From an uncultured Methylococcaceae bacterium (GTDB lineage Bacteria > Pseudomonadota > Gammaproteobacteria > Methylococcales > Methylomonadaceae), in assembly GCA_903873165.1 (NCBI GenBank), contig CAIQNQ010000211.1, positions 1 to 58,328 on the forward strand: 58,328 nucleotides of DNA. Direction: 5' to 3'. This document shows, one piece after another, positions 21,924-33,760 of this stretch (positions are counted from its first letter, which is position 1; every line of letters begins with the position of its first letter). The position numbers and the translations under genes were made by a program. The notes under the pieces are model-generated. The model was given only the letters and a program-made list of their open reading frames with translations. It was not told where the DNA came from and ran no database searches.

Positions 21924-22261
21924 TAGTTTACCTCACTTTTTTATTTTTGTTTTATTAATCAATGATGCAACTAAACAACTTGATGAAATTATCTTTCTGG
22001 AGATTTTCGAATTTCTACATCATTAACTTATTTTAAGGAATCCCACTAAAAGAATTTTTATGGAACTGTCGGGATGTTATCAGGTATCAGTTATAAATTA
22101 TCCTGCTGAAGATATCATGCCAGATTTAGAAAACGCCTAATATTATTTCAAATATCAGTTGTCTCTTACGGATTAAGTTTACAGCGTTTAGTGTTATCAT
22201 AAAACAAAATAGTAATAGTCTTTACTACTATAAAATTCATTAAGTTAGGAAACTCAATAAA
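21924..22261. other. Intergenic region between divergent DUF29 and ATPase-HNH genes
   Basis: No gene seen. Near its right end, ATAGTA (22209-22214 region) and TACTAT flank a short spacer just before a TATAAA-like box (about 22231), a possible promoter and operator for the downstream system. The GTG start at 22262 is preceded by TAGGAAA about 11 bases away. Confidence 0.4.
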
Positions 22262-25246
22262 GTGAAATCATTTCAGCAAATTCAAGACATTCTTCCTGCT
22301 TTACCTGCAAACATTAAAAGAATTTATCTATTGGGAAGTACTGGAGCGGGTAAAACTTCAATTGTTAGCCATATTATGGGGACATCTGCCCTAGGTTTTC
22401 CGATTACCACTCAAACAAGAACAACGCTTGCGACAACGGAATATGTCATTAAACGTGATTTGCCTTTTAAGACGACTCTTATTCTTAAGCAAAAAGATGA
22501 TGTTATAGAGGCTATTGAAGAGTTAATACAAGGAGCTATACAAAAAGCTATAGAAGATAAACGCTTAACGGATAATTTACCTAAGCGATTTCGTAAAGTA
22601 TTGTCTAGGCCAATAGGTATTGATGATATAACCGAAAGGTTACAGGAGTCATCAGATGAACGGTTCAGATTGCGATATATGGTTCAGAATGACGCACTTA
22701 AAAATCATGCGGGTTATATAGTTGAAAATATTATTCCTTTATTAGCAAATAAAGGGTTAGATGATGAAACTTTTTTTTCTGATAGTGCGGTAGAAACTGA
22801 AATAACTTTTGTAAGAGAGGGTATTTTAAAAGACATTGAACATGTTTTTAATGAGGTTTGCGGTGATCAGTACACGCTTTTTAGCGATAAACTTTATTGT
22901 ATCGAAAATATAACTGATAAAAGTATTTTTATACAAAAAAATAAAGAACTTTTAAAAAATGAATATGGTTCTATCTCTTTATTAGTTGATTATATAAGGA
23001 TAGAGGGTAATTTATTAGCCGATTGGCTGGATAATTCCTTAGAATTAGTGCTAATTGATGGTGAAGGGATAGCGCATTCGCTCCAAGAAAAAAGAGACAC
23101 GCTATCAACAAGACATTATGATTATTTTGATTTTTGCGATCAAATATTGTTAGTCGAAAAAGGTGATGACCCTTTTATTTCAGGTGGGCAAGCCGCTATC
23201 GAAGCCATTTTATTAAATGGCTATAACAACAAGTTTAAATTAATATTTTCAAAAATAGACAAAATTGAACAGGCAGATAAAAACAGTTTTTTAAGAAAAA
23301 GGTTGGAAAACTTAAAAGCTGCCTTAAAGCAAAAAAGAATAACACTCGAACTAGATAACAAGGATTGTTACAAACTAGAAAGCTTAAATTTAAATAGCAC
23401 GACAGAAGCTAGTCAAAGACAAATCAAACGATTATTGAAGGATATAAAGGAATCTGAGGATTTTAAATCAACGCCTTTAGAATATGACTTTTTAACGCTG
23501 TTGTTAAATCTTGATACCACTTTGTTTATTAAGAATTTTCAAGAAGACTTGGATAGTGAGCATTGGGCGGTTGTAAAAGCCTTTTCGAAGAGAATGTATG
23601 ATCATAAAGAAGAATATAAGCATTTAAAGCCCATTGCTTTTATACATACGTTCATTATGAATGAAATAGATGTTTTTTTAAAAAGGGACGATCAAACAAA
23701 AGCTGATATTTATAATGCAAAAAGTTTAATACAACAGCGATTTTCAAAAGAACTGTTGGCCTACATTAGAGCTGACTTTCAGGACAATAAAAATCATTTA
23801 TGGCAACTGGCCTTTGAAAAAAAAGGAATGGGGTCAAGTAAGGAAAGAAAATCGTTTATTGTCGAAAATATTTTAAAAGATTGTTTACCTGAAAAAGAAA
23901 GCGATCAAAAATTTGATCAGTTTAAAAATAACATTAAAGCTTTGTTGTTAGATTCGGGTGCGGTGATCTTAGCTTCTGCAAAAAAGATAGTTATAAAAAA
24001 AGTAGATATAAAAGGTATCTATGGGCATAAGAGTTTCTCATGGGAGTTAGCTGAGGATATTAATGTATTGTTGGGTAAAAATGGGAGTGGAAAGTCGACC
24101 ATTTTAAAACTTATTTATGCGTGCATGACACATGATAAAGTGATTTTTAATTATTTTGAAAATCCTTATGTGACGTTAACGCTTGAAAAGATTTATGAAA
24201 ACGAGAACACAAGGGAGATTACGATTTCTAATAACAGTGCTGCTGCAAATGTTGATGTGCAATTGATTAATACATTTGATGTGCCGGTTTCAAAAAATAT
24301 CGAAGGCACGGAATTAGATACCATACTCAGTAAATTAATAGTCGATTTTGGTGAATACATAAGGGTCTTAAAAAGTCACTTGGATAATGAAACGAGCGTT
24401 GATAGTTTAGCGATAGATGATATTCTTAAAAACATAGCCACTGCTGAAACAGATGATTTAAATCAGCTTAAAAACTTAAAAACAAAAGTAGACATCATTA
24501 AGAAAGAAAAATTTAAGCGGGTAAATTATTTTGAAAAGGCTATTAATGGTTTTTATAAAGAGACTCATAAATTTATTGAGACTGATAAAGACAAACCTTT
24601 AATAGTTAAATTGATTGCTAATGAGACGACTACAAGCGTTGATATTTTTAAATTATCATCGGGTGAAAAACAACTGTTAATTATATTTTTAACTGTCATA
24701 TTACAAGGAGATAAGGCGTTTATATTATTAATGGATGAGCCTGAATCTTCGTTACACGTTGAATGGCAGGCAATGCTGCTAGATAGCTTGAAGGGACTAA
24801 ATGACAATGTTCAAATTATTATTGCAACACATAACCCTTTGTTAGCACTGAATAGAAAATTTAATGAGATTGGGCGTGTAGAGATTGATAGTGATGCTGT
24901 TCAGATAGATTCTGGAGGAACTAAATACTTGGATGTTTCGGCAACCTTGTTAAATTACTTCCATTTAAGTTCTTTAGTAGGCGCAGAAATGAAGGGAAAA
25001 TTACGTGACTTATTTACCTTAAAAACACAAGAAGAACTCTCTGGGCAAGATAAAGATAGACTAGACGCTTTGGAAAAGGAATTAGGGCATACCTTAGCGA
25101 CTAATTTTATTTACGATAGGCATTATTTAGGTTTTTTACGATTTATCAAAGAAAATCATCAAATTGATTTTGATAAACTAACTGAAATATCAACAGAAGA
25201 AATGAATGAATTATTAGATGAGTTTAAGGGGTTATTTGATGATTGA
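22262..25246 (+). CDS. Dual-NTPase defence protein: GTPase-like domain fused to ABC/PtuA-like ATPase
   Basis: A 994-residue protein from a GTG start. Two nucleotide-binding modules are visible. Module 1 (about 15-400): P-loop GSTGAGKT (25-32), DGEG (266-269, in LVLIDGEG) and SKID (330-333, in LIFSKIDKI), the order and spacing of G1, G3 and G4 motifs of a TRAFAC-type GTPase. Module 2 (about 575-994): ABC/RecF-like ATPase with Walker A GKNGSGKS (605-612), signature LSSGEKQ (798-804), Walker B ILLMDEPESS (821-830) and H-loop ATHN (855-858), with a coiled-coil-like insertion near 710-770. The C-terminal module and the overlapping HNH gene resemble PtuA-PtuB of Septu defence. The extra N-terminal module is not part of standard PtuA. 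Role in anti-phage defence is inferred. Confidence 0.8.
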   Translation: MKSFQQIQDILPALPANIKRIYLLGSTGAGKTSIVSHIMGTSALGFPITTQTRTTLATTEYVIKRDLPFKTTLILKQKDDVIEAIEELIQGAIQKAIEDKRLTDNLPKRFRKVLSRPIGIDDITERLQESSDERFRLRYMVQNDALKNHAGYIVENIIPLLANKGLDDETFFSDSAVETEITFVREGILKDIEHVFNEVCGDQYTLFSDKLYCIENITDKSIFIQKNKELLKNEYGSISLLVDYIRIEGNLLADWLDNSLELVLIDGEGIAHSLQEKRDTLSTRHYDYFDFCDQILLVEKGDDPFISGGQAAIEAILLNGYNNKFKLIFSKIDKIEQADKNSFLRKRLENLKAALKQKRITLELDNKDCYKLESLNLNSTTEASQRQIKRLLKDIKESEDFKSTPLEYDFLTLLLNLDTTLFIKNFQEDLDSEHWAVVKAFSKRMYDHKEEYKHLKPIAFIHTFIMNEIDVFLKRDDQTKADIYNAKSLIQQRFSKELLAYIRADFQDNKNHLWQLAFEKKGMGSSKERKSFIVENILKDCLPEKESDQKFDQFKNNIKALLLDSGAVILASAKKIVIKKVDIKGIYGHKSFSWELAEDINVLLGKNGSGKSTILKLIYACMTHDKVIFNYFENPYVTLTLEKIYENENTREITISNNSAAANVDVQLINTFDVPVSKNIEGTELDTILSKLIVDFGEYIRVLKSHLDNETSVDSLAIDDILKNIATAETDDLNQLKNLKTKVDIIKKEKFKRVNYFEKAINGFYKETHKFIETDKDKPLIVKLIANETTTSVDIFKLSSGEKQLLIIFLTVILQGDKAFILLMDEPESSLHVEWQAMLLDSLKGLNDNVQIIIATHNPLLALNRKFNEIGRVEIDSDAVQIDSGGTKYLDVSATLLNYFHLSSLVGAEMKGKLRDLFTLKTQEELSGQDKDRLDALEKELGHTLATNFIYDRHYLGFLRFIKENHQIDFDKLTEISTEEMNELLDEFKGLFDD

Positions 25247-26006
25247 TATGAGTGGAATATTTTCTCATAACGATTATAATGATACGGTTGTTAAATTTAA
25301 CGAGTTTAAAACACCTAATTGCAGTTCTGATTGTAACTGGAGCATATTCCAGGATTTACATAAAAGTGTGTCAAATAATAAATGCCCCATCTGTGAGGTG
25401 GAGTTAGTTGAATCTCCAAATCATCCTTATTCAGCTACTATTGATCACTTTAGGCCTAAAGCCAGTGATATGTATCCAGGCTTAAAGTGTGAGCCCAAAA
25501 ATTATATTTTGATGTGCAGTCTTTGTAATAACCGATATAAAGCCGCAAAGTTTCCACTGCTTGATGAGACTAAACGAGCGACTAAAGCAAAAACAATAAC
25601 AGATACACGCTGTGAGCAACCATTGCTATTTAATCCTGCGGAAGAAAAGCCGTTAGACTTTTTTGAGTTAGTGTTTAGAATAACCGAAGCAGGTAATATT
25701 TTAGAACTTAAAAGAAACCCAAAAATCCCTAAAAATTCTTACCATTATCGACGAAGTGCGGAGATGATAAAACTTTTTGGTTTAGGTTATGTTCATAAAG
25801 ATATTCATCCAGATGAAGACAGCAAGGCCTTAAGGTTAGATGTTTTGAGGCTGCATAACTTAGTTTTTATTGAATTGGCGCAAGCTATCAGGGATAACAA
25901 TATAAAAGCATTAGCGCTTATTTTACAGGATAAAAACAGAAAAGAAATGTTAAAAAAGTATGGCTTTTTTGAATTTTTAAAGAAAAAACAGTTTTCTATT
26001 CAATAA
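25239..26006 (+). CDS. HNH endonuclease partner (PtuB-like)
   Basis: A 255-residue nuclease from the ATG at 25239, preceded by AAGGGG; it overlaps the ATPase stop by 8 bases. The HNH site with two zinc pairs is clear: CPIC (49-52), ATIDHFRPK (Asp69, His70), NYILMCSLCNNRYK (Asn88, Cys93, Cys96, Asn97). The C-terminal 130 residues are alpha-rich (LRLDVLRLHNLVFIELAQAI). Architecture and operon order match PtuB of Septu-type systems, where the ATPase controls the nuclease. The gene ends directly against an IS3 transposase remnant. Confidence 0.85.
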   Translation: MIDMSGIFSHNDYNDTVVKFNEFKTPNCSSDCNWSIFQDLHKSVSNNKCPICEVELVESPNHPYSATIDHFRPKASDMYPGLKCEPKNYILMCSLCNNRYKAAKFPLLDETKRATKAKTITDTRCEQPLLFNPAEEKPLDFFELVFRITEAGNILELKRNPKIPKNSYHYRRSAEMIKLFGLGYVHKDIHPDEDSKALRLDVLRLHNLVFIELAQAIRDNNIKALALILQDKNRKEMLKKYGFFEFLKKKQFSIQ

Positions 26007-26409: not shown

Positions 26410-27211
26410 TTGCTTTAGCTAAAAGCCTCTATGATTTAAAAGATAGCGGTGATTCTGTTATTACTCTGGAACAATTGGCTGTGCCGTTTTCCAAGCATAT
26501 TACTGAGCATTTGATTGTTTGTGATAAACAAGTTACTTCGGCTAGCAGTAAGTTTTGGAGGGTTGTCGGGGTTTTAATGCTGATCAAATTAATCATGATG
26601 CTTTGATTGATTTAACCGTGCTGTTGGGTTTTAACAATGTCATGGATGCTTTTCATAATGTCCATAATGAAGAAGTTCCTAGGTTTTTTAGCGATGAACG
26701 AAAAAATAAAGGCGGTATTATCTTAACGGATAATTTTTATCGCTTGGGCGAGCAATACCAATATGATAATCTGGCCGCAGAAACTGAAGCACGGTGGCGT
26801 TTAGTTGAAACGGCATGGGAATTAAATGTACCTAAACATTTAATTCAGATTGATTACAAAGAAGAAAGTCGAGAATTTTTCGCTGATAATAAATTACGCC
26901 GTGTTCCTGTAACAGCGGCTAGTCCATCTTTAAATGGTTATCAAAAAGTCTTGGCTTGTATAGATTGTAATAGAGGCGTTAATGGGAAATTTGCTAAATT
27001 ACCTTCGTTGCCATTACTTGAACGTTTACATGCCCGTAATGAGTATTTAATCACCAGTCATCATCCGCTCAGGGAAACGTTAATGGTACAAACGGGGTGT
27101 TCTACCGAGAAACGCCAACAGTTTTTGCAAGATGCTTATAACTGTAGCATAACCCATTACGGCATCCATCAAAAATGGCAACCACCACAACAAGGTATTG
27201 CTATTTTTTAA
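26410..27211 (+). pseudogene. HNH nuclease pseudogene 1 (first half of HNH site deleted)
   Basis: From about 26433 one frame reads DLKDSGDSVITLEQLAVPFS and ITEHLIVCDKQVTSASSKF. A frameshift and an inserted segment of about 90 bases follow. From 26640 a second frame continues MDAFHNVHNEEVPRFFSDER, DNFYRLGEQYQYDNLAAETE, REFFADNKLRRVPVTAASPS and LNGYQK. The reading then jumps to VLACIDCNRGVNGKFAKLPS and ends HQKWQPPQQGIAIF. The segment with the first cysteine pair and DVDHFFPHG, present in pseudogene 2, is missing; the second half (CIDCNRG) is kept. It is therefore inactive as a nuclease. Confidence 0.75.
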
Positions 27212-27464: not shown

Positions 27465-27740
27465 ATGCTCACGATTACATCGACTTATGCGGAAACCCAC
27501 TTTAATGAAGTAATTAATCAGGCACAGCAAGAACCCGTAGTCTTGACTGCCCAAGGGCAGACAGTTGCGTATTTGTTGTCACCTGTTGAATTGGAAAAAC
27601 TGCTTGCAGCGCAAAAGCAACGGGACAACGCTGTCGTAAACTATCAACACTATCAAGAACGCGTAGCGAGATTAGCTCATCCTGATACGGATTTATTAAC
27701 TGACGAAGCTATTAATCAACTTGTGCATGAATTACGTTAA
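27465..27740 (+). CDS. Phd/YefM-family antitoxin
   Basis: A 91-residue type II antitoxin. The N-terminus MLTITSTYAETHFNEVINQA with EPVVLTAQGQTVAYLLSPVE is the Phd/YefM DNA-binding fold; the C-terminal part (HPDTDLLTDEAINQLVHELR) would bind the toxin. ACTGGAGAATAAATA supplies a ribosome-binding site. The PIN toxin gene overlaps its end by 14 bases, but that toxin is truncated, so this may be an orphaned but still repressing antitoxin. Confidence 0.82.
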   Translation: MLTITSTYAETHFNEVINQAQQEPVVLTAQGQTVAYLLSPVELEKLLAAQKQRDNAVVNYQHYQERVARLAHPDTDLLTDEAINQLVHELR

Positions 27741-28017
27741 ACGTGTTGTTATCGATACCGGAACATTAATAAGTGCGGCTATCCGAGTCCATTCTGTCCC
27801 TAGTCTGGCCTATCAAAAAGCACTGCGAGATTATGAAATATGTATTTCGGAACAAACTTTTTATGAACTTGCAACTGTTTTAATGAGGGCAAAGTTCGAT
27901 AAATATCTCAATAGAGAAGACCGGGAGCGTTTTGTAGCTGACTATAAAAGTATCGCTGTTGTTTATGACGTCAGTTATACGGTAAATGATTGCCGTGACT
28001 CTAATGACAAACATTGA
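27727..28017 (+). pseudogene. Truncated PIN-domain toxin
   Basis: From the ATG at 27727: MNYVKRVVIDTGTLISAAIR is the first strand of a PIN RNase (VapC-like) with the first acidic residue, EQTFYELATVLMRAKF carries the second, and VNDCRDSNDK the third region. The frame then stops at 28017, before the last helices, giving 96 residues rather than about 135. A piece of another gene (28004-28099) is joined here in a different frame, so a deletion removed the C-terminus. Probably inactive. Confidence 0.7.
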
Positions 28018-28122: not shown

Positions 28123-28928
28123 ATGTCCAACGAAGTCCAAAATCCCATCATCAATTCGCCGTTTGTTGAGCCAAAGTTACATTGGCAAATGACGCTGCAA
28201 GGTGATTTGGAAGTCGGCGAACTGGAAGATTTGCCGATTGTTAATTGGCTACGCAGCCGCATTAAAGCATGGTGTGTTGGTGAATTAAAAGATAGCGGTG
28301 ATTCCGTTATTAGTCTGGAGTAATTGGTTGTACCGTTTTCCATACATATTGCCGAGCATTTGGTTGTGTGTGATAAACAAATTACCTCTGCAAGCATTAA
28401 GTTTCTGGATGCCTTTCATAATGTCCATAACGCTGAAGCACCGACCCGTTTTTTTATGGATGAAAGAAAAACCAAAGGCGGCATTACTTTAACGGATAAT
28501 TTTTATCTCTTGGGCGAGCAGTATCAGTATGATAATTTGGCCGCAGAAACGGAATCTCGCAGGCGCTTGGTTGAAACGGCTTGGGAGTTAAATTTACCCA
28601 AGCATTTAATTCAAGTGGATTACAAAGAAGAAACCCGAGAATTTTTCGCTGATAATAAATTACGCCGTGTTCCTGTCACCGCTGCCAGTCCGTCTTTAAA
28701 CGGTTACCAAAAAGGCCGGTGTTTTTATTGTTTCAGGGATATTTCTCTTGATAATAATCACTCTGATTTTGCCGATGTGGATCATTTTTTTCCACATGGA
28801 TTGTGCAAACAGGAAATTCTACTGAAAAGCGTCAGAAATTTTTGCAAGATGCTTATAACTGTAGCATAACCTATTACGGCATCCATCAAAAATGGCAACC
28901 CGCGCAACAAGGAATAGCTACTTTCTAA
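28123..28928 (+). pseudogene. Chimeric pseudogene: type III restriction start joined to HNH nuclease pseudogene 2
   Basis: The first codons read MSNEVQNPIINSPFVEPKLHW, the usual beginning of a type III restriction/DEAD helicase protein (NPIINSPFxEP), then LPIVNWLRSRIKAW. At LKDSGDS the reading switches to the HNH family found also at 26410-27211. A nonsense change (TAA at 28321-28323, where pseudogene 1 has CAA) splits it. The second part continues VVPFSIHIAEHLVVCDKQ to LNGYQKGRCFYCFRDI and DVDHFFPHG, then a deletion shifts it to VQTGNSTEKRQKFLQDAYNC and HQKWQPAQQGIATF. Here the first half of the HNH site is kept and the second half lost, the reverse of pseudogene 1. Confidence 0.75.
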
Positions 28929-30514: not shown

Positions 30515-30577
30515 ATCAGAAGCTAAGCTCTAAATATAAACGGTATTAAACTAGTCCAATTCTTTAAAGGAATGAAT

Positions 30578-31648
30578 ATGCTTGACAGTATATTAATAAA
30601 AAACTTCAAAGGCATAAAGCAATTGAAGCTTGACAAGCTAAGCAAGTTGACAATTATTGGTGGAAAAAATAATTGTGGAAAATCTTCATTGATGGAAGCA
30701 ATGTCTATGCTTTTTAAAAGAATGGATCCTAACATAGTTATTCAACACTCAATATCAAGAGGGGTTAACGTAATCCCAACAGAGCCAGAGTTCATGTGGG
30801 CTCCGGTTTTTAATGATTTTGATTTAACAAAAAAGATTGAAATTAATTCAAAATTTAAAGGTAAAACAAAAAAACTGGAAATTGAGGTTCAAAAAAATGT
30901 GAAGCGTAATATTCCAGTTGGACCGCTCCCTTTTAACAGCATTCAAAACACATCCGTTTCTATAGCAGATGTGCTCTATTTAAAATTTTCTGATGAAAAG
31001 TCTGTATCAGAAAAGAGTGGTATCTATCTGGAACAGAATGGCGGTTTTAGCTTAAACGTAGAACATACTTCTCCTTATAAACCCATTCCAACAGCCTATT
31101 TTTCCTCACGCCAAATTTCAAATCAAAATGAAGACTCAGAAAGATTAGGGCGTATAGACATTAATAATAATGTTAATGATGTGTTGGATGTTATGCGTAG
31201 CATTGTGCCAGAAATTTCATCCATTACAGCGATACGTGTTTCTAACGCATCCATGATTTATGTGGACTTAGGGAAAGAAAAAAAGTTTCCTGTTTCGTAT
31301 ATGGGTGATGGCATTTCACGATTGTTATCCATTGTCTTGGCTATAGCTACCTGTAGATCTGGAATTGTATTTATTGATGAAATAGAAAATGGACTTCATT
31401 ACAGTGTTATTAAAGATGTCTGGAAAGGGGTTGTTAATGCATCAAATAAATTTGATTGTCAAATTGTTGCAACAACACACAGCCATGAATTTTTAACCTC
31501 AGCTTGTGAGGCAATGAAAGAATTAGATGCTAATGAACCTGATTTTTCTTACATTCGTCTAGTGAAAAAAGATGACGAGGTGTTTGGAAAAGCGTTTGAT
31601 TATACAATGCTTGATTATGCCATTGTGTCTGAAATGGAGATTAGATAA
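30578..31648 (+). CDS. OLD/AriA-like AAA ATPase
   Basis: A 356-residue ABC-type (AAA_15/AAA_21) ATPase. AAAGGAA before ATG 30578 decides the start over ATG 30572. MLDSILIKNFKGIKQLKLDK is the typical RecF/OLD opening. Walker A is GKNNCGKS (29-36), the signature region is MGDGISRLLSI, Walker B IVFIDEIENGLHY (Asp267, Glu268), and the H-loop TTHSHEF. Its stop overlaps the ATG of a TOPRIM-like gene (TAATG), as in split OLD or PARIS (AriA-AriB) defence modules. Defence role is inferred. Confidence 0.82.
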   Translation: MLDSILIKNFKGIKQLKLDKLSKLTIIGGKNNCGKSSLMEAMSMLFKRMDPNIVIQHSISRGVNVIPTEPEFMWAPVFNDFDLTKKIEINSKFKGKTKKLEIEVQKNVKRNIPVGPLPFNSIQNTSVSIADVLYLKFSDEKSVSEKSGIYLEQNGGFSLNVEHTSPYKPIPTAYFSSRQISNQNEDSERLGRIDINNNVNDVLDVMRSIVPEISSITAIRVSNASMIYVDLGKEKKFPVSYMGDGISRLLSIVLAIATCRSGIVFIDEIENGLHYSVIKDVWKGVVNASNKFDCQIVATTHSHEFLTSACEAMKELDANEPDFSYIRLVKKDDEVFGKAFDYTMLDYAIVSEMEIR

Positions 31649-32268
31649 TGAGCACTAAACTTAAAATATCACACAATAAGCTGATTCTCGTTGAAGGGGC
31701 AGACGCTTATTGGTTTCTTATTTGGGCTTTGAAAGCATACTCAATAGAAGATGTCCAAGTGATGGACTTTGGAGGGAATCCTGATTTGTTTATGTTTATT
31801 AAAACGCTAAAGAATTTGGATAATTTTGATTTAGTGACATCAATTATCATAGCTCGTGATGCTGAAACAGATCATACAGCCGCTTTTTCTAGTGTAACAG
31901 CCGCACTTAAAAATAATGGACTTTCGGTTCCTGATATTTTATTTTCGTATAAGGATGGTAATCCTAAGATTGCCGTTATGTTATTTCCTGGATATGATCA
32001 AAATGGGAATATAGAAAATGGCTGCCTTGAGCATTTATGTTTAAAAACTATAAATGATAAAACCATTGAAACAACACAAAAATATCTTATGGATGTTAAT
32101 GAAAGTCATGAAAAGCTGACTCATGAACATAAATCGAAATTGCATGCTTACTTATCAGTCAAAAATAAATTTGTTGGTAGTAAGTTAGGCGAAGCGGCAA
32201 ATTATGGCGCTTGGGATTGGCTGGCACCTTCATTAATACCCTTTAAAGAAACTATAGAAAACTCGTAA
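31648..32268 (+). CDS. TOPRIM-like (DUF3226-type) effector
   Basis: A 206-residue protein translationally coupled to the ATPase. LILVEGADAYWFLIWAL (Glu16) and IIIARDAETDHTAAF (Asp71, Glu73, Asp75) are the conserved Glu and DxExD motifs of TOPRIM-like nucleases; KIAVMLFPGYDQNGNIENGC and the LEHLCLKTI segment fit DUF3226. In PARIS, the partner is a DUF4435 TOPRIM protein; here it is DUF3226-like, so this pair is related in design but not the same family. It could be a nuclease activated by the ATPase. Appears intact. Confidence 0.78.
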   Translation: MSTKLKISHNKLILVEGADAYWFLIWALKAYSIEDVQVMDFGGNPDLFMFIKTLKNLDNFDLVTSIIIARDAETDHTAAFSSVTAALKNNGLSVPDILFSYKDGNPKIAVMLFPGYDQNGNIENGCLEHLCLKTINDKTIETTQKYLMDVNESHEKLTHEHKSKLHAYLSVKNKFVGSKLGEAANYGAWDWLAPSLIPFKETIENS

Positions 32269-32313: not shown

Positions 32314-33008
32314 ATGAAAACTCATGGGAAAATAAAATCTGAACTACACCACTGGTGGCCTGTATGTGTTTCTAAGCATTGGAAAAATAAAGATGGTTGT
32401 GTGCATTGGATATCACCAAATGGAGAAGTTAAAGTGGCGCCTATAAAAAATTTGGCTGTATTGGAAATGGGCATTACATAAAATTAGGTAAAAACATAGG
32501 AGAATCGACACCTTGGGATCAGAATTTCGAACCGCTATATGATATGGCTGACAAAGGCTTTCCATCGGTGATTACTTGGCTTCAATCATTAGATCGAAAA
32601 TATGTATCAGACGCAAAAACATTAACTGAACGATTTATTTCTGAAAATGTAGATGATGATCAAATAGCCCAGCTCGTTGAAAGTGTTGTTTCATTAGCGA
32701 CTAGAAGTCCAATGCATAGAGAATCCTCAGTTAGGATAGCGGAGAATCTCCGAGGACCTTTGCCAGAAACAGAGAGAAATGCTTTAATTACTATGAATAT
32801 GCGTGATAGTCATAAAAATGCTATTTCATCGATTGGCACTAAAGGGAAATTTGTTGTTTTGTATTCGCCATGTAGTGAGTTTATTTATGGTGATGGCTTT
32901 TTTTATAATCTCGATTCAATTAGTCCTAAAATAGTTGCTCCTATAACACCTGAAATAACCGTACTTTACACGCGACCATTCAGATACATCACTAAGCTGG
33001 CGACATAA
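32314..33008 (+). pseudogene. Frameshifted and truncated DUF4238-like gene
   Basis: First segment (32314-32481): MKTHGKIKSELHHWWPVCVS, KHWKNKDGCVHWISPNGEVK and a stop. One reading-frame change near 32460 restores GNGHYIKLGKNIGESTPWDQ, FPSVITWLQSL, SPMHRESSVRIAENL and the DUF4238-like end IYGDGFFYN and IVAPITPEITV. The protein stops at 33008 in TRPFRYITKLAT, short of the family's usual end, where a helicase scrap begins. Function of the family is unknown. Confidence 0.6.
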
Positions 33009-33117
33009 GAGTGTTTAAAGTTGCCGACAAAGTCTAAGGCGACCAGATAGTTTTTGTCGGGCAATAGTCTTAAGCCTCGTCTCAGTTGTTGTAAAAATAC
33101 CGTAAAGGATTGGGAGG
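33009..33117 (-). pseudogene. Scrap of a superfamily II helicase
   Basis: Minus strand reads PSQSFTVFLQQLRRGLRLLP then DKNYLVALDFVGNFK. This is the C-terminal RecA domain of an SF2 (DEAD/DUF3427-like) helicase, with motif VI QQLGRGLR changed to QQLRRGLR. Only about 36 codons remain, sandwiched between the DUF4238-like pseudogene and Rpn remnant C. Confidence 0.6.
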
Positions 33118-33760
33118 GTCATAAAAAAGGCCTTGATAGATTAAGGCCTTTGGTTTGTTAGCTTTGCATGTTTTACTGTGCAATAAAACCTATCATTTTA
33201 AGTATGATCAGCTAACCATGTTTCTAAGTCTGACATGGCGTTAAAGTCTAATAAGGCATCGGCTAAGTCTTCTAGCTTTTCTAAAGGATAGGTCGGGAAG
33301 CTTTGTAAGATGGTTTCAAGTTCAGATTGTACGCCGACAAGCGTCTTAATTGGCGACTTAGTAATTTAATACATTCTTTTTGCTCGCCTATTTGTTCACC
33401 TTCCGCAGATACTTCTTGATAAAAGCGGGTATCTTGTAATTTAACTTCATATACAGATAACATTTGTTTAATCTCCTCGCGGCTTAAGTGCGGTAACTTA
33501 TAAACCAATATTGTTTCAATAAGATCCAAACCTTCTACATCTATTTTATCAAGTCGCTCTGCTAAATCTTTAGCTTGGCTTATTGTCTGTTGTATATCAC
33601 TGACAATCAAGCGAATAAATTCAAGTGCAGGTGATAAGTCAGTGCGGTTTTGAGAATCTTCTCAGTAAATACGATGGACCTAGGGTAAATTTAAGAAAGG
33701 TAAAAACTCAATGTCAAAAAATTTAGCGTATTAGTGTAATATACCGTTTAGTATGATGGA
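33115..33760 (-). pseudogene. Rpn/DUF2887-DUF4351 family remnant, copy C (longest)
   Basis: Minus strand. It encodes FFDIEFLPFLNLP, stop, VHRIY, stop, EDSQNRTDLSPALEFIRLIV, then an open stretch from 33610: SDIQQTISQAKDLAERLDKI, LIETILVYKLPHLSREEIKQ and KECIKLLSRQLRRL. A frameshift near 33335 leads to the DUF4351-type end SELETILQSFPTYPLEKLED and DALLDFNAMSDLETWLADH. Two nonsense codons and the missing N-terminal PD-(D/E)XK core make it inactive. Its 5' edge lies about 40 bases from cydD. Confidence 0.78.
33126..33151 (-). terminator. Hairpin ending Rpn remnant C
   Basis: AAAGGCCTT (33126-33134) / AAGGCCTTT (33143-33151) with an 8-base loop, the same element as at 29653-29680. Confidence 0.65.

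Follow-up and report, generated by a model that had tools for sequence, protein, structure and literature searches.

Organization of the locus

The window considered here, i.e. the whole stretch of 58,328 nucleotides of contig CAIQNQ010000211.1 from an uncultured Methylococcaceae bacterium (assembly GCA_903873165.1), carries a two-gene cassette in which a protein of 994 residues, predicted to join a dynamin-like GTPase to an ATP-binding cassette (ABC) ATPase of the PtuA/AriA type, is followed by an HNH nuclease with the features of a divergent PtuB (Table 1). The GC content is 32% at the locus versus 38.6% across the window. The initial annotation described a 994-residue protein with G1, G3-like and G4-like motifs and a complete set of ABC motifs, overlapping by 8 bases with an HNH gene, and this description stands: every motif is present and conserved in relatives, with H857 aligning as the H-loop of the ABC domain, and the overlap is confirmed with the conserved HNH start, ATG 25239, the mechanical open reading frame (ORF) opening at 25218.

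The fusion ORF starts with GTG, as does the copy of the sister species (G1323), and the aligned codon is ATG in the fused copies of a Campylobacterales genome (L016), of Aureivirga (L017), and of Marinomonas (L018), which makes the start at 22262 credible. Across the six aligned fused proteins (the window and five relatives), all the G1, G3, G4, and ABC motifs are retained with minor substitutions, such as SKVD/SKTD, GCTGAGKT, and GKNGCGKS, and SK.D is found in all six. In the alignment of 25 N-terminal sequences, R246, D266, G267, G269, and other positions are invariant, while G25 and T27-T32 are at least 90% conserved; the conservation of the motifs rules out their origin by chance. The HNH protein matches PtuB of PADLOC (7.9e-18) and the Pfam HNH family (1.5e-4), and four of its residues (D69, H70, N88, and N97), as well as two CxxC pairs, show no variation among the four aligned sequences.

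Table 1. Features of the two-gene cassette in window coordinates
Feature	Position	Strand	Evidence
Fusion protein, 994 residues: dynamin-like GTPase (predicted) and PtuA/AriA-type ABC ATPase	22262..25246	+	ORF, profiles, models, relatives
Dynamin-type G domain (predicted), residues 1-400	22262..23461	+	AlphaFold2 model, Foldseek, VIA-align (aligned about 15-400)
G1 P-loop GSTGAGKT, residues 25-32	22334..22357	+	Alignments
Insert within the G domain, mostly helical, residues 81-240	22502..22981	+	AlphaFold2 model
G3-like DGEG, residues 266-269	23057..23068	+	D266, G267, G269 invariant in 25 N-terminal sequences
G4-like SKID, residues 330-333	23249..23260	+	D333 conserved in at least 90% of 25 sequences
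Helical region, residues 401-572, possible short counterpart of the dynamin neck/trunk	23462..23977	+	AlphaFold2 model; loose alignment to BDLP and IniA
ABC ATPase domain, residues 573-864	23978..24853	+	Profiles, full-length model, structure comparison
ABC Walker A GKNGSGKS, residues 605-612	24074..24097	+	Alignment
ABC signature LSSGEKQ, residues 798-804	24653..24673	+	Alignment
Walker B ILLMDE, residues 821-826	24722..24739	+	Alignment
C-terminal tail, residues 865-994; model confidence low in parts	24854..25243	+	Alignment, full-length model
HNH nuclease, divergent PtuB, 255 residues, 8-base overlap with the fusion gene	25239..26006	+	Pfam, PADLOC, aligned starts
HNH catalytic Asp-His, D69 H70	25443..25448	+	Four-sequence alignment

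The N-terminal half as a predicted dynamin-like GTPase

The profile scans of the N-terminal half employ residues 1-546 alone, and its structure is predicted for residues 1-572. No Pfam or NCBIfam family reaches its cut-off with residues 1-546, and the only PADLOC match is a weak one to mad8 (0.012); the lack of any PADLOC PtuA match in this region, together with that of a Pfam or NCBIfam match at cut-off, speaks against a known extension of PtuA among the profiles scanned. When the profile of the N-terminal family is compared with solved structures, almost all the matches fall on the P-loop, and the best ones outside of it are to EHD4 (E 0.016 and 0.018).

The AlphaFold2 model built from the 25-row alignment reaches a predicted local distance difference test (pLDDT) of 87.5 and a predicted template modelling score (pTM) of 0.87. 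A Foldseek search of the PDB retrieves 11 chains with E ≤0.001, of which ten belong to the dynamin superfamily (SynDLP at 4.6e-7, a bacterial dynamin pair, BDLP, and Fzo1) and one is a G-alpha subunit. Likewise, VIA-align places first Fzo1 (Z 18.5 over 222 residues, with a root-mean-square deviation, rmsd, of 3.4), SynDLP (Z 17.9, 271 residues, rmsd 3.9), and BDLP (Z 16.5, 363 residues, rmsd 6.2), followed by small GTPases at about Z 14.5, while the helical region 401-572 aligns loosely to BDLP and IniA (rmsd 6-8). According to the model, the GTPase fold of the N-terminal half is firm, and its assignment to the dynamins, which rests on the top ranks and on the margin over small GTPases, is made by prediction. 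Thus, the extra GTP-binding-like module that the initial annotation had noticed in front of the ATPase is, as predicted by AlphaFold2, Foldseek, and VIA-align, a GTPase fold of the dynamin superfamily, which may, as that annotation suggested, serve as an infection sensor or a second switch.

The ABC half and its kinship with PtuA and AriA

The C-terminal half matches AAA_21 (3.6e-21) and ABC_tran (9.2e-11) in Pfam, and in PADLOC its best match is AriA of PARIS (3e-42), with PtuA at 6.7e-28. Comparison of its sequence profile with solved structures returns the same names, namely AriA (3e-19), retron-type PtuA (down to 1e-9), and Septu PtuA (6.5e-9). The full-length model of the fusion (pLDDT 82.2, pTM 0.67) places the ABC domain at residues 573-864, whose closest solved folds are retron PtuA and AriA; specifically, AriA aligns with Z 20.0 and rmsd 4.1 over 284 residues at 20% identity, and Septu PtuA with Z 16.1. 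Residues 865-994, poorly predicted in parts, could represent the portion that docks the nuclease. The pairing of a Septu-like ATPase with an HNH protein, proposed by the initial annotation, is borne out by the PADLOC matches of both proteins, PtuA and PtuB, although the single best match of the ABC half is AriA.

Distribution of the fusion and of its unfused relatives

Relatives were collected stepwise, from a tblastn search of plasmids with the N-terminal part to an alignment and then to scans of GTDB genomes and viral contigs with that alignment. The counts of carriers are lower bounds, as the GTDB contig scan yields at least 597 stretches and the searches by order and phylum score only two or three candidates per genome. 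The GTDB scan yields at least 18 loci, and the full fusion is present in three of the 18 listed, i.e. L016, L017, and L018, with whole-protein identities of 39-46%. In a fourth (L019), the contig end cuts the gene, and another contig from that genome (L081) contains a 672-residue ORF with the rest of the protein and the HNH gene, so that the two are inferred to be one gene. The other 14 are distant (22-28% identity).

Within the order of the window, a profile search of 301 genomes gives matches in 15: the fusion is full, or has both halves in one frame, in three (the window's own genome, G1323, and G1411); G1424 belongs to the same clade, and only its N-terminal part is seen since the contig ends before the ABC half; the rest comprise five full-length frames without the fusion, a broken copy that is likewise unfused, and five weak matches at the level of the P-loop, which are left uncounted. 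The only real match among 397 genomes of the phylum of L016 is its own genome, G369 (15 other rows are weak), and among 395 genomes of the order of L017 it is G370, again its own (five other rows are weak). Across the class, the N-terminal sequence of the window retrieves only its own copy and one weak match from the 369 genomes surveyed. Such a small number of real matches in the surveyed genomes indicates that the system is rare. No viral contig matches the fused alignment, the ABC half retrieves from viral contigs three loci with a different ABC gene pair, and tblastn of the window's N-terminal half finds nothing in 50,697 phage records.

Altogether, the fusion is recorded in six full copies including the window's, one copy split over two contigs, and one truncated where its contig ends, in three phyla. 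The HNH gene lies directly downstream in all seven loci with downstream DNA (the window, L016, L017, L018, L081, L082, and L083), thereby extending to other genomes the arrangement seen in the window. The 8-base overlap, ATGATTGA, fits six of these loci (in L018 it is taken from its ORF) and is identical in five, whereas L017 has a 4-base gap instead. In L081, L082, and L083, none of which served to build the profiles, the matches range from 2.6e-50 (partial gene) to 1.1e-149 for the dynamin part, from 4e-156 to 2e-191 for the ABC domain, and from 1.5e-84 to 2.9e-111 for the HNH protein.

Most relatives of the N-terminal half are not fused. The tblastn search matches 11 of 72,556 plasmid records, and the nine plasmid relatives examined are annotated as hypothetical proteins of 670-781 residues; in the eight that were aligned, G1, DGEG or DGQG, and THFD stand at the GSTGAGKT, DGEG, and SKID of the window. 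With the 13 loci found on viral contigs, the unfused set amounts to 41 loci (nine plasmid, 14 GTDB contig, 13 viral, and five from the window's order), several of which are near-copies. The module is unfused in 39 of the 41; the other two (L032 and L033) are truncated at the 3' end, which puts their fusion state beyond judgement, and L028 is missing its 5' portion. Across the 41 loci, these two included, there is no match to the HNH profile, and the ABC profile marks a single marginal ORF, at a distance of 4.4 kb in L087. An HNH gene of a different kind is annotated in L005, 3.3 kb downstream.

These relatives inhabit plasmids, chromosomes, and prophages. In five of the 13 viral loci (L036, L038, L039, L040, and L043), the dynamin-like gene lies beside phage head or tail genes on the opposite strand, which is the layout of a prophage moron; in addition, the neighbour scanned in L044 shares its phage family, whose function is unknown, with one in L038, and an integrase is found near the gene in L035 and L046 (the neighbour scans cover eight of the 13 viral loci). 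On a Caballeronia plasmid, the unfused relative is next to patatin-like and nucleotidyltransferase genes. Weak matches to LeoA or LeoBC occur in two of the four unfused relatives scanned (L022: LeoA 2.5e-5 and LeoBC 4.2e-5 over the P-loop region; L020: LeoA 5.2e-4). This unannotated dynamin family of plasmids and prophages provides candidates for single-gene defence or superinfection-exclusion proteins.

Seventeen aligned unfused relatives are extended at the N terminus by about 100 residues, a stretch with weak similarity to DUF6538 in six of them (best E 0.021). The stretch has a conserved pattern, FRHP...GLGT (L006 4927-5256, L007, L011, L014, and 13 more rows), is suggestive of the arm-binding domains of integrases, and may bind DNA. 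Large unannotated ORFs lie directly behind the unfused genes of L011 (7201-8997; no Pfam or PADLOC match) and L021 (3435-4907; only short and weak PADLOC matches), and they are possible other partners of these genes. In the window's order, one unfused copy (G1175:C9:13923-15364, L076) is broken over several frames.

Evolution of the cassette

In a tree of 34 rows, for which the program issued warnings on long branches and odd letter make-up, the eight fused sequences are located on one side of a branch with support 100/100, and Pseudomonadota, Campylobacterota, and Bacteroidota are mixed within the fused clade. One clade mixing three phyla suggests a single fusion event followed by horizontal spread. 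The window and G1323 share 97.1% DNA identity at 22232-22574 and 94.4% at 22607-26000, whereas the immediate flanks of the two cassettes have no match. The fused cassette is therefore mobile, with a pattern of horizontal spread; moreover, synonymous divergence (dS) between the window and G1323 ranges from 0 to 0.30 along the gene, a variation suggestive of recombination among cassettes.

Every domain is under purifying selection between these two copies, with ratios of nonsynonymous to synonymous divergence (dN/dS) that rise from 0.11 in the ABC domain through 0.15 in the tail and 0.26 in the dynamin part to 0.33 in the HNH gene. The most conserved part is the ABC domain, in which 3 of 292 residues differ. 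Conversely, residues 81-240 change the fastest in all three close pairs: 26 of 59 differences fall in 145 of 979 positions in the first (P 1.9e-8), and P is 1.1e-3 and 7.4e-7 in the others, which alone count as fresh tests, given that the stretch was chosen after the first pair had been seen.

The strong conservation of the ABC domain could be read as the sign of an ordinary Septu/PARIS-like ATPase-nuclease, in which the ABC part does the sensing, as AriA, and the dynamin-like part is a passive domain for assembly or stability. AriA, the closest relative of the ABC half, is indeed called a sensory subunit in one structure entry; nevertheless, the preservation of G1, G3, and G4 across three phyla exceeds the needs of a passive spacer, and the prevalence of the unfused module argues for a function of its own, which make this explanation unlikely.

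Relation to known systems

The cassette resembles Septu in that a gene for a PtuA-like ABC ATPase, with Walker A, signature, Walker B, and H-loop intact, precedes a PtuB-like HNH gene. It differs in the dynamin-like N-terminal half of about 572 residues carried by the ATPase, in the PtuA models, which do not cover the fusion protein over its length (their matches begin at residue 495 or later among the best 25 of 83 families), and in the HNH protein, which is too divergent for a sequence match to a solved PtuB. As the known PtuA models do not cover the ATPase lengthwise, it is a variant of the Septu-like systems and not a plain Septu, and the pair may be filed, by its gene content, as a Septu-related system.

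Type I-A retrons (Ec78/Eco7 and Ec83), made of a reverse transcriptase, multicopy single-stranded DNA (msDNA), and PtuA-PtuB, share with the cassette the architecture of a PtuAB effector with an added control module, and the ABC half matches their PtuA structures, whereas the added module is here a fused GTPase. A retron is rejected, since RVT_1 has no match in the whole 99.97%-complete genome (3 of 14 control genomes match) and Rfam has none in the window at gathering score. PARIS (AriA-AriB) provides the best alignment for the ABC half; however, AriA (464 residues) is too short for a dynamin half and the partner of the fusion is an HNH protein, while AriB is described as a Toprim nuclease (PMC12409363), so that PARIS is rejected on account of the partner.

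Bacterial dynamin-like proteins (SynDLP, the paired dynamin-like proteins 5oxf/5owv, BDLP, and IniA) have in common with the fusion the fold of the G domain and the G1, G3, and G4 motifs; in contrast, the fusion has a short helical part, no visible membrane segment, and a fused ABC ATPase, and the identity is about 8-17%. Dynamin-like proteins are counted as defence in the Eleos (LeoA/LeoBC) and 'Dynamins' categories, as reported in PMC11811056, whereas LeoA and LeoBC are unmatched by residues 1-546 of the fusion (PADLOC, E 1). The literature searched (among others PMC11980606, PMC12137116, PMC10440598, PMC10855318, PMC11811056, and PMC10853773) yields no dynamin-PtuA fusion, although the tables of a 2020 survey of ABC ATPases and of a PtuAB structure paper could contain one, and no dynamin linked to a nuclease effector. 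Eleos is not known to include a nuclease.

Proposed function and alternatives

Work on the separate components offers a basis for interpretation. In one Septu PtuAB, both the ATPase and the HNH residues are reported to be required, and tRNA-Tyr is cut in its variable loop on infection (PMC13096335); in retron Eco7, PtuAB is described to lead to tRNA-Tyr degradation, and another Septu is reported to target DNA (PMC11555353). For DynA, a bacterial dynamin of Bacillus, clustering at the membrane on infection, delayed lysis, and a need for the lysines of the nucleotide sites are reported (PMC8844932). From the cutting of tRNA or DNA by PtuAB and the response of DynA to infection, the dynamin half is proposed to be an infection-triggered, GTP-driven switch of a PtuAB-type nuclease. 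We moderately favour the view that the cassette is a mobile two-gene defence system in which the dynamin-like GTPase triggers this nuclease on infection.

Specifically, the HNH protein would be the PtuB-like effector nuclease, and the ABC half would act as a PtuA-like ATPase that assembles with it and, by analogy with PtuAB, restrains it. On infection, the dynamin-like half would serve as the trigger by binding a phage- or membrane-derived cue and/or by pairing of its G domains and GTP-dependent assembly; this would rearrange the attached ABC assembly and release the nuclease, which would then cut tRNA or DNA, aborting the infection. It is possible, although we hold this only tentatively, that short dynamin-like GTPases of an undescribed family, borne by phages and plasmids and mostly standalone, were captured once by a PtuA-PtuB pair and gave rise to a dynamin-gated nuclease, with GTP-driven assembly in place of the reverse transcriptase and msDNA of retrons.

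The context supports a defence role, as two fused copies are found in neighbourhoods rich in restriction genes. In G1411, the pair follows the hsdS gene of a type I restriction operon (hsdR-hsdM-hsdS) after 41 bases and in the same direction, and in G1323 ORFs resembling parts of a type IV restriction helicase flank the cassette on both sides, the upstream one being separated by an 807-residue ORF. The same neighbourhoods, together with the anti-phage activity reported for the PtuAB pairs of PMC13096335 and PMC11555353, contrast with a role other than anti-phage defence, i.e. a module for plasmid or phage maintenance or for genome conflict (e.g. toxin-antitoxin-like or anti-plasmid). Such a role would agree with the mobility of the cassette and with the occurrence of unfused relatives on plasmid records and viral contigs, yet it is very improbable.

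Alternatively, the dynamin module itself may be the effector, through membrane damage or repair, with the ABC and HNH proteins as its regulator or as a second, independent arm. The 41 unfused loci, all devoid of this HNH family, are in line with this, as is the protection that DynA is reported to provide via the membrane (PMC8844932); conversely, the hydropathy scan sees no membrane segment, the HNH catalytic residues are invariant in the four sequences aligned, and the pair is kept in every locus where it can be seen, which render a dynamin effector scarcely probable.

A dynamin-triggered nuclease also has to be weighed against several contrary observations. Foldseek gives low TM-scores against dynamins (0.20-0.33, normalised by query length) and the rmsd is large, meaning that domains are matched and not the whole arrangement, so that the case for kinship is carried by the G domain and the ranking. 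None of the 19-residue hydropathy windows reaching into residues 1-572 exceeds a mean of 1.63, hence no obvious membrane segment, and the helical part of the module is short; for these reasons, membrane sensing is unsupported, the module may only dimerise, and the cue could be the membrane or a protein. The set of four HNH sequences, used as a profile, matches no solved PtuB. Residues 81-240 are themselves under purifying selection, with dN/dS of 0.21-0.43 in the three pairs (0.52 at most for residues 101-200), and thus their faster change is no proof of an arms race. Lastly, mobility and varied neighbours are seen equally in other mobile genes.

Dynamin-family GTPases act as immune proteins in animals (Mx). 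The presence of the cassette in three phyla suggests that in bacteria a dynamin switch became coupled to a defence nuclease, and the conserved covalent link between the two would make a clean two-gene system for asking how a dynamin senses infection, in which sensor, regulator, and effector could each be targeted by point mutations of their own.

Genomic surroundings

The host genome contains a gene for subunit A of the particulate methane or ammonia monooxygenase (pMMO/AMO), so the host is probably a methanotroph. In the window, a DUF29 gene lies upstream of the cassette, and downstream there are two related ORFs and a Phd/PIN pair, as well as another ABC gene accompanied by a DUF3226 gene; in L016, a small helix-turn-helix gene is immediately upstream. 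A repeat of about 117 bases (window 22046-22164) ends 98 bases upstream of the fusion gene and recurs with 80-91% identity at other places of this genome and in several more genomes from the genus; a check of its fold reveals nothing special.

The two related ORFs (26555-27211 and 28324-28869) share, by eye, long near-identical stretches and have no Pfam match; the second has an HNH-like motif, and together they look like a duplicated, broken nuclease gene, with the Phd/PIN toxin-antitoxin pair (27465-28017) between them. At 30572-32268, an ABC-type ATPase gene (AAA_15 7e-29, 358 residues) overlaps by 1 base with the gene of a 206-residue DUF3226 protein (1.1e-19), and the pair is a candidate for another OLD-like defence pair. 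Further downstream, 136 bases (32992-33127) are 92% identical to L082 8630-8765, which is part of the type IV restriction-helicase-like ORF adjoining the sister-species cassette.

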